Source: a virus. Taken from it: a DNA stretch of 23,834 bases. Shown here one piece after another: positions 19,193-23,564 of this stretch. Numbering within the stretch: the stretch's first letter is position 1; each line of letters begins with the position of its first letter. The notes beneath the pieces are model-generated. The model was given only the letters and a program-made list of their open reading frames with translations, was not told the origin of the DNA and searched no databases. The position numbers and the translations under genes are program-made. The stretch is from the IMG/VR virus record IMGVR_UViG_3300046003_004612, positions 1 to 23,834 of that record; one strand, written 5' to 3'.

Positions 19193-19565
19193 TTTTTAGA
19201 CATAGTTATCGCTAGAATTGATGAAAAGCCCTAACCATATGGCTAGAATCAGCTTAAATTTGTTGTAATAGATATAGATTCGCCTGGTTATGGGGGATAA
19301 CCAATCCTCTATAATCATTAAGTTCTTGTAAAAGACCCCCTACCCCAGCAAGCTAGAGTAAAGAGGGTAAGTTCTTGCCCTTTCGGGTTTCTCGATGCTA
19401 CGGATTGGTTACCGTACGCCCTGGGCTTCGAGATGCGACCAGCCCGCAGATTCTTAAGGATTTGCACCCGCTCACGTTATTCTGTGGCTTACTGCTATCA
19501 GTTTCTTGAGGTTCAACCCTGATAGGGTCATCAACTAAAGTGCCTCTGACTTTTACCGATTGGTA
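19193..19565 (-). ncRNA. Structured non-coding leader upstream of the methylase operon
   Basis: No credible gene occupies these 373 bases. Read on minus, the RNA would contain: stem TCTCGA/TCGAGA (19428-19433 with 19390-19395) enclosing TACGG/CCGTA with an 8-base loop; a CCC-GAAA-GGG tetraloop hairpin (19378-19387) that is favourable only on this strand; a 7-bp hairpin TGGTTAT/ATAACCA with loop CCCCC (19285-19303); ACCCT/AGGGT (19516-19528). A perfect 10-base inverted repeat GGATTGGTTA (19402-19411) / TAACCAATCC (19298-19307) would let the first hairpin's loop pair with the arm of the second. CAAGAACTTA occurs twice (19319-19328, 19368-19377 on minus). The region may continue into the ORF upstream. 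The RNA class is not recognised. Confidence 0.5.
19330..19368 (-). terminator. Terminator-like hairpin inside the left leader
   Basis: On minus, ACCCTCT/AGGGGGT (7 bp including one G-U) with a 20-base loop is followed by CTTTTAC. It would stop the leftward early transcript before the methylase unless overridden. The T-tract is short, so it may be partial. Confidence 0.45.
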
Positions 19566-19763
19566 CTACTTATTTCTTACAAACCGTCCAAATTTGGATT
19601 GAAAACACACATGTCTGCGTTGGTTTTCAATAATGTCCATTTCGGTGGCTTTGGGCGATAATTCAAAGCCTCTGCCGAATGTATTGGTCTGAGCTTTACG
19701 AGGACGCAAAGACAAACTTGCTGCCCTCTTATCCCCTGCTATGTTTCTTTTCTGTACGCTCAT
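19566..19763 (-). CDS. 65-aa basic protein, uncertain
   Basis: A 65-residue, Arg/Lys-rich ORF (KRNIAGDKRAASLSLRPRKA; NQRRHVC; FGRFVRNK) after the ribbon-helix-helix-like gene. Its ATG lacks a good Shine-Dalgarno; a 5-codon ORF with AGGTAAAG starts just before it. Position directly upstream of a structured leader and the arginine-rich start would suit an RNA-binding antiterminator such as lambda N, but no sequence match is claimed. It contains a 12-base palindrome TCCAAATTTGGA (19588-19599). It may instead be part of the structured RNA. Confidence 0.4.
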   Translation of the reverse strand: MSVQKRNIAGDKRAASLSLRPRKAQTNTFGRGFELSPKATEMDIIENQRRHVCFQSKFGRFVRNK

Positions 19764-20204: not shown

Positions 20205-20222
20205 TTATTTACTATGCGAAAG

Positions 20223-20250
20223 ATTATAGGCTATTTGGATAAAAAATCAA
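20223..20250 (-). promoter_or_regulatory. Early leftward promoter (cro promoter)
   Basis: Minus strand: TTGATT (20250-20245), 16-base spacer, TATAAT (20228-20223). The spacer contains one operator and the second operator abuts the -35 on the upstream side. The layout is base-for-base similar to the rightward promoter at 21204-21231. Confidence 0.85.
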
Positions 20251-20264
20251 TAGGTTATTTGGAT
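20227..20264 (+). promoter_or_regulatory. Left operator pair
   Basis: Two 14-base sites, TAGGCTATTTGGAT (20227-20240) and TAGGTTATTTGGAT (20251-20264), start-to-start 24 bases, on either side of the cro -35. They match inverted copies at 21190-21227. Probable binding sites for CI and Cro. Confidence 0.8.
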
Positions 20265-20288
20265 GATTATTTAGTTAATAATAAGGAA

Positions 20289-21041
20289 ATGAATAATCAA
20301 TCAAAATATCCAGAATTTTCAAAGCGCTTAAAACAAGTTTGGAAAGAATGTGCAGCTGCTCCATCTAATCAAACTCAATTAGCTAAATGGCTAGGCTTTG
20401 CTCAACCTACTGTAAATAACTGGATAAATGGAAATGCACTGCCAAGTTTATTGACAGCAGTTGGATTAGCTGAAAAGCTTGGATGCTCAACAGAATGGCT
20501 TCTCAGCGGAAAAGGTCAAAAGGAATTAACGCAGCTATCAGGAGTCGCTACAGTATCTCCAATAGCAAAAGGAACCATAGTATTGGGTGGTTTTGACCTT
20601 TGGGACGATGATACGCCATTAGATGATGACGAAGTTGCATTACCTTTCTTTCGTGAAGTAGAGCTGTCAGCCGGATCAGGACGACATCAAGTTATCGAGA
20701 ATCATGGCAAGAAACTCAGGTTTGCTAAATCAACTCTCAAAAAAAGTAATGTCGCTATTAATAAAGCTGCCTGTGTAACCGTATCTGGTAATAGCATGGA
20801 GCCAGCCTTACCAAATGGTTGTGTCGTTGGTATAGATACTAATAATAAATCTATTGTGGACGGAAAGCCCTATGCTATCGATTATCATGGCGATCTATTA
20901 GTTAAAAGACTTTATAAAATACCTGGTGGTGGGTTTCGGCTAAATAGCTTTAATTCAGAATATCCAGACATTAACTGTTCTGCTGATGATTCTGGTATTG
21001 TGATTATCGGAAAGGTTTTTTGGAGTAGCCAGCTCTGGTAA
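20289..21041 (+). CDS. CI-like repressor with LexA-type autoprotease
   Basis: A 250-residue protein from ATG 20289 (MNNQSKYPEF); an upstream in-frame ATG at 20214 would run through both operators and the cro promoter and has no ribosome site. The N-terminal helix-turn-helix (about 27-50) includes TQLAKWLGFAQPTVNNWING. A linker is followed by the S24 peptidase: cleavage site SAGSG (Ala128-Gly129), nucleophile in SGNSMEP (Ser169), general base in LLVKRL (Lys206). It should keep the prophage silent and self-cleave on RecA-ssDNA, so the phage is probably SOS-inducible. AAGGA lies very close to the ATG. A strong terminator follows. Confidence 0.9.
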   Translation: MNNQSKYPEFSKRLKQVWKECAAAPSNQTQLAKWLGFAQPTVNNWINGNALPSLLTAVGLAEKLGCSTEWLLSGKGQKELTQLSGVATVSPIAKGTIVLGGFDLWDDDTPLDDDEVALPFFREVELSAGSGRHQVIENHGKKLRFAKSTLKKSNVAINKAACVTVSGNSMEPALPNGCVVGIDTNNKSIVDGKPYAIDYHGDLLVKRLYKIPGGGFRLNSFNSEYPDINCSADDSGIVIIGKVFWSSQLW

Positions 21042-21063
21042 TAATATCTAATATCAACATTCA

Positions 21064-21085
21064 AACCCCTTAACTGGGGTTTTTT
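21064..21085 (+). terminator. Intrinsic terminator of the repressor gene
   Basis: AACCCC/GGGGTT 6-bp stem, 6-base loop TTAACT, then TTTTTT. It lies 22 bases after the repressor stop and separates lysogenic from early rightward transcription. Confidence 0.9.
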
Positions 21086-21132: not shown

Positions 21133-21189
21133 ATAAATACCTCAATTAATCAGATAGTTATGGTTTTATGTGTTATTTTGTTTAAAATA

Positions 21190-21227
21190 ATCCAAATTGC
21201 CTATTGATTAATTATCCATTTTGCCTA
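21190..21227 (-). promoter_or_regulatory. Right operator pair
   Basis: ATCCAAATTGCCTA (21190-21203) and ATCCATTTTGCCTA (21214-21227), inverted relative to the left pair and with the same 24-base period. One lies in the spacer of the rightward promoter, the other directly upstream of its -35. Confidence 0.8.
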
Positions 21228-21231
21228 TAAT
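21204..21231 (+). promoter_or_regulatory. Early rightward promoter
   Basis: TTGATT (21204-21209), 16-base spacer, TATAAT (21226-21231). The predicted +1 is near 21238, just where the structured leader RNA begins (its first paired base is 21240). Same arrangement as the cro promoter. Confidence 0.88.
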
Positions 21232-21237
21232 AACATC

Positions 21238-21434
21238 CAACGAAACGGAAAATCCCCGTAGAAGGATTGCAAGGCCGGTGAAATACTCCGATAGACCTTA
21301 GCAGGAAATCGTCTTTATAAGACTTGGTATGTTAGTTCTACGGGGGTAGCCTTTCGTGCCAAGTCTTATAACCTCGAAGGGTTACTCCTCGCCTAATGGC
21401 ACATTCAAACCCTCATTTCGGTGAGGGTCTTTTT
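21238..21434 (+). ncRNA. Structured leader RNA with crossing stems and own terminator
   Basis: No gene is present. Stem A: CCCCGTAGAA (21254-21263) with TTCTACGGGG (21336-21345), 10 bp plus one G-U. Stem B: ACGAAA (21240-21245) with TTTCGT (21352-21357), extended by GG/CC after a bulge and nearly continuous with A. Stem C: TTATAAGACTTGG (21315-21327) with CCAAGTCTTATAA (21359-21371), 13 perfect pairs. C crosses A/B, so the fold is a pseudoknot or two alternative states. Stem D, 21265-21310, fills the loop of A (TGC/GCA, AAGG/CCTT, CGG/CCG). The RNA ends with the terminator at 21409-21434, giving about 197 nt from the predicted +1. Class unknown; it could be a cis antiterminator, an attenuator or a free small RNA. 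Confidence 0.7.
21409..21434 (+). terminator. Intrinsic terminator inside the rightward leader
   Basis: ACCCTCA/TGAGGGT 7-bp perfect stem with loop TTTCGG, followed by CTTTTT. It lies about 290 bases before the first early gene, so the early operon requires read-through. Confidence 0.88.
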
Positions 21435-21720
21435 GGGAGATAAGAATTTACGGCTGGTGTCCTCTCGCACCATAAAAAGACGGGAGTTAGTGTAATCCTT
21501 AATTAACATAACTGCCGTAATTGCTAACCCAGACCGGCTAAGTGTCTGGGGTTTATAAGACTGTCTATCTTGATAGATTGTTGTGAGAGGCTTGCTGTCT
21601 TGGTAGGCAGTCTTATGAATTGTGTACATGCTTCAGTCAGGTATAGCACATCACGCTTGTGCGATAACGGACAGCTCCATGCGATCTGGGGCAATCAATA
21701 ATAATTATCGGAGAAATAAA
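21435..21720 (+). ncRNA. Second structured segment of the rightward leader
   Basis: No gene on the coding strand. Three-way junction: TTACGGC/GCCGTAA (21448-21454 with 21514-21520) enclosing TGGTG/CACCA (21455-21472) and AGTTA-g-TGT/ACA-TAACT (21485-21513). Then hairpin CCCAGAC/GTCTGGG (21528-21550). Then ATAAGACTG/CAGTCTTAT (21555-21563 with 21608-21616) enclosing TCTAT-CTTG-ATAGA and CTTGC/GTAGG. Then GCACA/TGTGC (21646-21662), GCTCC/GGGGC, and CGATAA (21662-21667) with TTATCG next to the ribosome site GGAGAA of the first gene. The TTATAAGACT...AGTCTTAT pair repeats the arms of stem C upstream. Confidence 0.55.
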
Positions 21721-21721
21721 C

Positions 21722-22012
21722 ATGGCTATTCACTATCCAGTAAAAGACTTTGCATCTAAGCAACGTCAAGACTTCATCAAAGAACAAGCTAAGAAAGTAT
21801 TTAAACCAGAACGAGTGATTGTTGAAGAATACGAAGAACACTTCTACATAGATGCTCAGGCTGTCAGCGATGCTAAATTCCTGATCGCTATTCTTGCTGG
21901 CATCTTGTTGCTCTTATCAATGTTTTTAACTACCACCCAAGCCAAGGCTGAAGATGGAAGTGCAATGCCTATTAGTCCAATGAGCTTAGTTGATGCCTGG
22001 GGGAATGAATAA
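21722..22012 (+). CDS. 96-aa membrane protein, unknown function
   Basis: A 96-residue protein and the first gene of the rightward early operon, with GGAGAAATAAAC before its ATG. Residues 1-50 are charged and probably cytoplasmic (KQRQDFIKEQAKKVFKPERV, EEYEEHFYID). Residues about 52-72 are one membrane helix (FLIAILAGILLLLSMFLTTT). Then QAKAEDGSAMPIS resembles an AxA signal-peptidase site, so the helix may be a late signal anchor and the C-terminal 25 residues periplasmic. The stop overlaps the next ATG (TAATG). Position and topology would suit a superinfection or host-takeover factor; that is speculation. Confidence 0.72.
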   Translation: MAIHYPVKDFASKQRQDFIKEQAKKVFKPERVIVEEYEEHFYIDAQAVSDAKFLIAILAGILLLLSMFLTTTQAKAEDGSAMPISPMSLVDAWGNE

Positions 22013-22194: not shown

Positions 22195-22349
22195 TCAGAT
22201 GGATTATGCAAATCTTGGCCAAGGCTGACTTTGAGAACCACCGCGAGCCAAGATTCACAAACAAACATTACTTAAACGAATACGGCAACCTGTACGCCAA
22301 TACAGAAAGCCAAACACATTATACAGAGGTTTATGATGACTATTTATAA
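22191..22349 (+). CDS. 52-aa protein, unknown function
   Basis: ATG at 22191 (overlapping the previous TGA) to TAA at 22347-22349, 52 residues. It starts with a short hydrophobic helix MIRWIMQILAKAD, followed by a polar, Asn/Tyr/His-rich stretch (ENHREPRFTNKHYLNEYGNL) and an acidic end (TEVYDDYL). The 3' end overlaps the start of the ERF gene and contains its ribosome site GAGG. No family is recognised. Translation is supported by overlap only. Confidence 0.5.
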   Translation: MIRWIMQILAKADFENHREPRFTNKHYLNEYGNLYANTESQTHYTEVYDDYL

Positions 22350-22863
22350 GAAATTGCAAGAAGCACGAATACGCTTGCAAGCAACACCACTTAACAAGTC
22401 TGGTGTAAATGCTTTTGCCAAATACTCTTACTTTGAATTAGGTGATTACCTGCCTCAGATTCAAGCCATTTTTAATGATGTTGGCTTAACTGGCATTATC
22501 AGCTTTGGCGTAGAGCTGGCAGAGCTAAATATATTTGAGCATGAAGGTGACGGCAAAATAACCATTACTTCTCCTATGTCATCAGCCTCGCTTAAAGGCT
22601 GTCATGATGTCCAAAATCTTGGAGCAGTACAAACCTATCAAAGACGTTACTTGTGGCAGTCGGCATTGGAAATAGTCGAGCATGACGCATTAGACGCAAC
22701 AACAGGGCAGGAAAAACAACCTGACTATAAAGCCTTGCTGGAAACCGCAAAGAATGTGTCACAGCTGGGTTCAGCATGGCAAATGATACCTAAGCCCATG
22801 CAACCTAATTTCGTTGAAATTAAAGACGAAATGAAAGCTAAATTAACCGAGGTAGCAGCATGA
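22336..22863 (+). CDS. erf: ERF-family single-strand annealing protein
   Basis: About 175 residues. Two adjacent ATGs (22333, 22336); GAGG lies six bases before the second, so 22336 is preferred. Family landmarks are KSGVNAFAKYSYFELGDYLP (residues about 20-40, the N-F-x-x-Y-x-Y-F-x-L-x-D pattern), the central ITSPMSSASLKGCHDVQNLG, and AVQTYQRRYLWQSALEIVEH with D following. It anneals complementary single strands during phage recombination, like P22 Erf, and pairs with the exonuclease and SSB encoded next. The stop overlaps the exonuclease start. The short C-terminal tail may contact SSB. Confidence 0.85.
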   Translation: MTIYKKLQEARIRLQATPLNKSGVNAFAKYSYFELGDYLPQIQAIFNDVGLTGIISFGVELAELNIFEHEGDGKITITSPMSSASLKGCHDVQNLGAVQTYQRRYLWQSALEIVEHDALDATTGQEKQPDYKALLETAKNVSQLGSAWQMIPKPMQPNFVEIKDEMKAKLTEVAA

Positions 22864-23564
22864 GTATTATTCATTTTGATCTGGAAACCATCCCTAGCCA
22901 AGCTGATGGGGTGATTGAATCCATACGCGAAAATATCAAGCCTCCTGCCACTATGTCAAAGCAAGACACGATTGACAAATGGTATGAGGAAAAAGCCGAT
23001 GATGCAGCCAATGAGCAACACAGAAAGCAGTCATTTGATGGCGCATTAGGCGAAATTATTTCAATAGCCTGGGCGCTGGATGATGGTCCAGTTAATGTGA
23101 ACTACCGGTCTGATGATAATGAAGCTGGATTATTACGCAGCTTCTTTGCAGATATTAACGACCTGACTGACAAGTATGGTCAAAAGGTCCATATCTCTAC
23201 TTGGTCAGGGCATTACATCACAGGATTTGATCTGCGATTCCTATGGCAACGCTGCGTCATGCTCGGTGTTAGACCAACTGTGCATATTCCGTATGAAGCC
23301 AAGCCTTGGGACTCAAAAGTGTTTGACACAAAAGTAGCTTGGACAGGTACAGGTCAATACTCAGGGATTGGTAGCTTAGATGCACTCAGTAAAGCATTTG
23401 GCATGGAAGGTAAAGGCGACATTGACGGCAGTAAAGTCTATGACTACTGGCTTGATGGACGCATTGAAGAAATTGCTGAGTACAACAAACAGGATGTTGA
23501 GAAATGCCGGTCTTTATATAACAAGATGAACTTCATTACTGAGTCATCACCATGTCTTATTTAG
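22860..23564 (+). CDS. DnaQ-like 3'-5' exonuclease (DEDDy)
   Basis: A 234-residue protein. Exo I is FDLET (Asp7, Glu9); Exo II is HYITGFDLRFLWQR (Asp124); Exo III is YNKQD (Tyr208, Asp212), the YxxxD form, so all four metal ligands and the Tyr are present. The layout is that of the predicted PolB-like exonucleases found beside phage annealing proteins. It probably supplies or trims single-stranded DNA for ERF, though the polarity here is inferred from the family. The ATG overlaps the erf stop (ATGA), and the following small gene starts 13 bases before its end. Confidence 0.87.
   Translation: MSIIHFDLETIPSQADGVIESIRENIKPPATMSKQDTIDKWYEEKADDAANEQHRKQSFDGALGEIISIAWALDDGPVNVNYRSDDNEAGLLRSFFADINDLTDKYGQKVHISTWSGHYITGFDLRFLWQRCVMLGVRPTVHIPYEAKPWDSKVFDTKVAWTGTGQYSGIGSLDALSKAFGMEGKGDIDGSKVYDYWLDGRIEEIAEYNKQDVEKCRSLYNKMNFITESSPCLI

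Follow-up and report, generated by a model that had tools for sequence, protein, structure and literature searches.

A conserved and exchangeable leader RNA of a lambda-like early operon that probably decides whether polymerase continues into the recombination genes

Antitermination by RNA alone is known in phages mainly from the put elements of HK022, of which putL lies just downstream of the PL promoter, is about 70 nt long and contains two stem-loops (PMC9378689). For the boxA motif, which is relevant to any comparison with the nut/N system of lambda, the consensus GYTCTTTAANA has been given (PMC5725501). In the case of Gifsy-1 IsrK, one promoter gives rise to a terminated small RNA as well as to a read-through mRNA (PMC4825925).

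The leader analysed here is found in an IMG/VR virus record of 23,834 bases, the whole of which is referred to as the window. Its control region is lambda-like, and the contig is that of a temperate phage. Promoters flank the cI gene on both sides, a YdaS/Cro-like gene is located on the minus strand, and the promoter on the plus strand is followed by the leader, more noncoding DNA, the gene of a 96-aa protein, an Erf-like gene and an exonuclease gene, which is the same layout as in the PL operon of lambda (Table 1). The cI reading frame opens at 20214, with the ATG at 20289 as the likely start; the divergent promoter overlaps the start of the longer frame. Positions 19566-19763 (minus strand) encode a small basic protein (65 aa, pI 11.5) in which a QKRNIAGDKRAASL motif is conserved. 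Most carriers have this protein in their early operon; it matched no family and is possibly an RNA-binding protein. The other early transcript also includes a stretch of 350-450 nt without long ORFs (19196-19566 in the window, minus strand). When the equivalent place was compared in the window, L103, L015, L016, L017, L101, L115 and L011, this stretch turned out to be wholly unlike between relatives, yet common to the pairs L103/L015, L016/L017 and L115/L011, as would result from a swapping of large structured RNAs; it had no Rfam match.

The homologues of the leader comprise about 15 metagenomic contigs, mostly fragments. Class W consists of the window and six contigs (L002 to L007; the leader of L002 is identical to that of the window, and L004 is partial), which are nearly identical and keep the whole element including both long stems. 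Class M consists of eight contigs (L024, L025, L026, L029, L101, L104, L105 and L115) that keep the first 66 nt, bar the apical hairpin of the branched stem P2. At the place of the 13-bp stem P3 they possess a 13-14 bp helix of other sequence, TTGTATAAATAGCA/TGCTATTTATACAA; the crossing is absent, and their terminator, GCTCCGTAGCGATACGGGGCTTTTTT, differs from that of class W. Over both classes, 53 of the 66 columns of this 5' module are invariant, with most variable ones in the apical loop, and one pair of the small 5' hairpin is broken in one of eight distinct sequences. The module occurs beside differing repressors, Cro genes and first genes: in L104, L105 and L115 it is joined to another downstream leader, and in L105 it is accompanied by another Cro and a different repressor. 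As far as sequence comparison tells, the element moves as a unit that reaches from the transcript start through the terminator. A truncated form is seen in L028 (2902-2965), where 24 nt of the 5' module are directly joined to the class M terminator and the operon is kept; this could be a true deletion or an assembly fault. The distant relatives L009 and L011 have short and unrelated leaders, with a terminator soon after the promoter.

The conservation is anchored at the predicted transcript start. Upstream of it, a 46-nt stretch of the PL-like promoter recurs, at 78% identity, in the divergent promoter next to cI (20223-20268, minus strand), which we read as common repressor operators. Transcription is predicted to start at about 21238, and 13 contigs with eight different promoter/operator sequences are alike from CCAACNAAACGG on, within 1-2 bases of this position. 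The class W sequences are 46-67% identical to the window in the promoter region, against 97-100% over the first 66 nt of the RNA. The 13 contigs differ in the DNA 5' of the predicted +1 but share the RNA, which lends good support to a start at about 21238, and the original prediction that an early rightward transcript begins here is borne out by the lambda-PL-like promoter and by the position at which the conservation sets in. The convergence of contigs with eight promoter/operator sequences at this point indicates that selection acts on the RNA, and we regard it as strong evidence that the unit under selection is the transcript from +1.

Table 1. Features of the leader element and of the surrounding control region and early operon in the window
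Feature	Position	Strand	Remarks
CI-like repressor gene	20289..21041	+	PHROGs phrog_4 repressor, E 1.6e-53
cI-transcript terminator	21063..21082	+	7-bp hairpin, then T run
PL-like early promoter with operator-like repeats	21185..21231	+	TTGATT-16-TATAAT (21204-21231), 10/12 promoter match; -35 21204-21209, -10 21226-21231; sequence varies from phage to phage
5' module, from predicted start	21237..21302	+	near-invariant in classes W and M
6+2 bp stem, extension of P1	21240-21248/21350-21357	+	
Small 5' hairpin ACGG-AAAATCC-CCGT	21245..21259	+	MFE/centroid; alternative to the 10-bp stem
10-bp stem P1	21254..21263 / 21336..21345	+	perfect inverted repeat; 3' arm within the P3 loop
Branched hairpin P2	21267..21304	+	folds
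CGTCTTTA	21310..21317	+	located where class M has CGCTCTTT; boxA-like, not above chance
13-bp stem P3	21315..21327 / 21359..21371	+	perfect; extends to 17 bp, 21315-21331/21355-21371
Small hairpin GCC-loop-GGC	21391..21400	+	arms kept, loop length variable among W phages
Intrinsic terminator closing the element	21409..21434	+	8-bp hairpin 21409-21428, then CTTTTT; 8 bp invariant in W
Further noncoding leader up to first gene	21435..21721	+	folding z -4.47; exchanged as modules in L104, L105, L115
First operon gene, 96-aa likely membrane protein	21722..22012	+	no family assigned
Erf-like ssDNA annealing protein	22333..22863	+	PHROGs phrog_155, E 4e-23
Exonuclease gene	22860..23564	+	same operon as the Erf-like gene; PHROGs phrog_403, E 4e-17

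The helices of the original prediction, i.e. the 13-bp, 10-bp and 6+2 bp stems and the branched hairpin, were all found at the coordinates of Table 1, and the element indeed ends in a terminator about 197 nt from +1. Among 400 dinucleotide-preserving shuffles, a 13-bp perfect stem occurred in none and a 10-bp perfect stem in 3, and none contained a crossing pair totalling at least 18 bp with each stem at least 8 bp long. The folding z of the whole element is -3.59, and that of the 5' module, for which two hairpins are predicted in 69 nt, is 0.01 against shuffles. P1 and P3 alone leave linkers of 8 nt (21328-21335) and 13 nt, and linkers of these lengths fit an H-type pseudoknot. The geometric objection that 8 nt would have to span about 19 bp arises solely from including the 6+2 bp extension, and P1 and P3 by themselves are compatible. 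A fold forced to contain P3 with free P1 strands reaches -52.8 kcal/mol, and the nested minimum lies at -65. With our own estimates of about -22 for the P1 helix without its loop and of a typical pseudoknot penalty, a pseudoknot with P1 and P3 would come near the nested minimum and be about isoenergetic with it. When growing transcripts are folded to minimum energy, P1 and its extension appear between 21345 and 21364 and are later displaced by P3 (13-17 bp), which agrees with the suggestion that the stems alternate, P1 with its extension probably forming first and P3 next.

Class W keeps the named stems in 96-100% of cells. A pair of P1 is broken in L005 and a pair of P3 in L003 and L005, by one change each; none of the pairs is changed on both sides among its 4 distinct sequences, which speaks neither for nor against the stems. 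Also the joint alignment of W and M revealed no covariation for the pairs of P2 and the 5' hairpin. Read by eye, the apical pairs of P2 are CGG/CCG in class W and L025 and CGC/GCG in the remaining class M sequences, a single swap which, owing to a gap, went unregistered in the automatic alignment. For P3, the helix of other sequence at its position in class M supports pairing; P1 as a crossing stem is, on the sequences compared, without support beyond class W. The covariance-model search that had been proposed was run with the 5' module over 91 sources and found only the known carriers, and compensatory changes were not found in class W. The case for the pseudoknot as the defining feature of the element is weakened, given that class W shows no covariation, class M no crossing, and that the crossed fold is approximately isoenergetic with the nested one; from this comparison it is class-specific.

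The second half of the leader contains a long hairpin, TTTATAAGACTGTC...GGCAGTCTTATGAA (21552-21619, plus strand), which is kept in most relatives, with T-G replaced by C-G in its stem. Two 20-nt copies of TTTATAAGACT..., which are 80% identical, are located in P3 (21314-21333) and in this downstream hairpin (21552-21571), in class W only.

In agreement with the earlier statement that no known RNA class could be recognised, an Rfam search of the element at gathering score was empty and a relaxed search gave two spurious miRNA matches (E 0.31 and 3.7); Rfam searches with six relatives yielded nothing real. Comparison of the leader with a phage collection by blastn gave no match, and a scan of viral sequences with an alignment of the first gene found no new leaders. 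The 22-nt 5' pattern was matched 8 times in GTDB contigs; all these matches are put down to chance, since their surroundings are unlike the leader. No hit of the 5' module covariance model was obtained in 369 genomes of the class of a Vibrio genome, which says little as no carrier genome was included, and an Erf relative was likewise missing from the genomes of that class. A leader peptide was considered as well and rejected, since class M has not retained the only short frames (e.g. ATG TTA GTT CTA CGG GGG TAG near 21330), in line with the noncoding nature that had been assumed for the element.

In the window, no promoter-like site was found on the plus strand between 21231 and 22843, and L101 of class M contains none from the transcript start to the first gene. 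As the terminator precedes all genes and no other promoter-like site lies before Erf, the recombination genes, the Erf-like gene among them, can be expressed by this route only through read-through. The conserved and swappable leader module probably decides whether polymerase continues into the recombination genes. We tentatively favour, with confidence somewhat short of even, a cis-acting leader of the PL-like early operon that governs read-through of its own terminator by a put-like action on polymerase, with host factors only. A repressor-controlled PL-like promoter would start the transcript, with the cis-acting leader between this promoter and the operon genes. The nascent RNA, first the 5' module and then P3, would need only host factors to act on the elongating polymerase, and polymerases started at PL would then pass the terminator, as with HK022 put. 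In the course of transcription, P1 would form first and would then yield to P3 or be bridged by it. What leads us to hold such a host-factor-only action most likely is the variety of repressors, Cro proteins and first genes that accompany the module; L105 has the leader RNA and lacks the small basic early protein. Against a put-like action speak that the 5' module by itself has no folding advantage over shuffles, that in L028 the operon and the terminator persist with just the initial 24 nt and without most of the element, and that L009 and L011 have only short leaders before the terminator. A more far-reaching version is held with low confidence: the leader would represent a second, unrelated family of RNA-only processive antiterminators, anchored at the start, working with host factors alone and consisting of a 66-nt conserved 5' module and a long, sequence-exchangeable helix, which temperate phages would exchange along with the terminator.

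The alternative that survives best, though we consider it rather unlikely, is a dual small RNA and leader like Gifsy-1 IsrK, in which most transcripts would stop at 21434 and the remainder would read through into the operon. The stable RNA of about 197 nt would act in trans on a host or phage target via its invariant 5' end. It would fit this proposal that the 5' end is conserved in sequence with little structural requirement, that the terminator is strong and the element exchanged as a unit, and that IsrK provides a precedent for one promoter with both products; the missing match to any Rfam family, c4 included, and the loss of most of the RNA in L028 speak against it.

An attenuator or switch, in which exclusive pairings of the 5' CCCCGTA box would set terminator formation depending on a factor, the speed of transcription or an RNA, is in our opinion unlikely. 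In class M, the 5' GGAAAAUCCCCGUA is complementary, except for one position, to UACGGGGCUUUUUU, which comprises the 3' arm of the terminator and the U run, and the CCCCGTA box can pair with the terminator's own 3' arm. A gap of 0-2.3 kcal/mol separates folds that contain the 5' pairing from those that contain the terminator, and the former is the minimum for L024 and L028; this predicted pairing could be a switch. In the window, the change from P1 to P3 in growing transcripts points in the same direction, as does a GGGTT/AACCC pairing that is predicted shortly before the terminator is complete. However, the pairing with the terminator is not carried over to class W, where the P1 box pairs in the P3 loop and P1 and P3 are not linked to the terminator stem. 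A pairing beside the U run could moreover terminate by itself, and the complementarity is partly of low complexity and was noticed after the fact. A passive leader, whose terminator merely shields the operon from leakage of the cI transcript and whose stems serve RNA stability, is improbable, as it would fit the terminators close to the promoter behind the unrelated leaders of L009 and L011 and the second terminator at 21063, but leaves unexplained both the near-invariant 66 nt at the head of the RNA and the passage of PL transcripts through the terminator.

Returning to the favoured put-like action, the comparison with HK022 reveals both likenesses and differences. As in HK022, the module of the window lies directly 3' of an early PL promoter and starts at +1, a conserved unit of about 70 nt with two predicted hairpins is followed by a terminator, and an obligatory phage protein is not evident. 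In contrast to put, the element is single-copy, its small hairpins are no better than chance, and the long P3 helix and the terminator are part of the unit. No similarity was detected to the putL/putR region, which was located in NC_002166 by mutual similarity of the two, the best local matches being 6-9 nt long, and no second copy of the module stood out above shuffles on the divergent early transcript of the window, L101 or L103. The lambda nut/N system shares with the element a PL-like leader, a TCTTT motif followed by a hairpin, and a downstream terminator. A boxA appeared attractive in class M (CGCTCTTT), but the window leader has no match with up to 2 mismatches, class M has 3 mismatches, and the counts equal chance. 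As an N-like partner, the only conserved small basic early protein, of 60-65 aa (pI 10-11.5) and found in most carriers, was considered; it is absent from L105 and matches no N family. Since the tests for put (similarity and second copy), for boxA and for a phage partner all failed, we do not file the element as put or nut. With the leaders of IsrK, P1 c4 and P4 CI RNA it would have in common that a phage promoter gives a short terminated RNA and a read-through transcript, but it is without an Rfam match and without a repeat pair like seqA/seqC that is conserved in W and M; P4-like repeats (TTATAAGACT) in P3 and the downstream hairpin were rejected, being present in class W only. Even as an attenuator or a small RNA, the element would be an undescribed compact leader with natural variants, namely pseudoknot, terminator-competing and truncated forms, whose mechanism is directly testable. 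If the put-like reading is true, uncultured phages would possess a family independent of HK022 put, and control of polymerase by nascent RNA would have arisen more than once.
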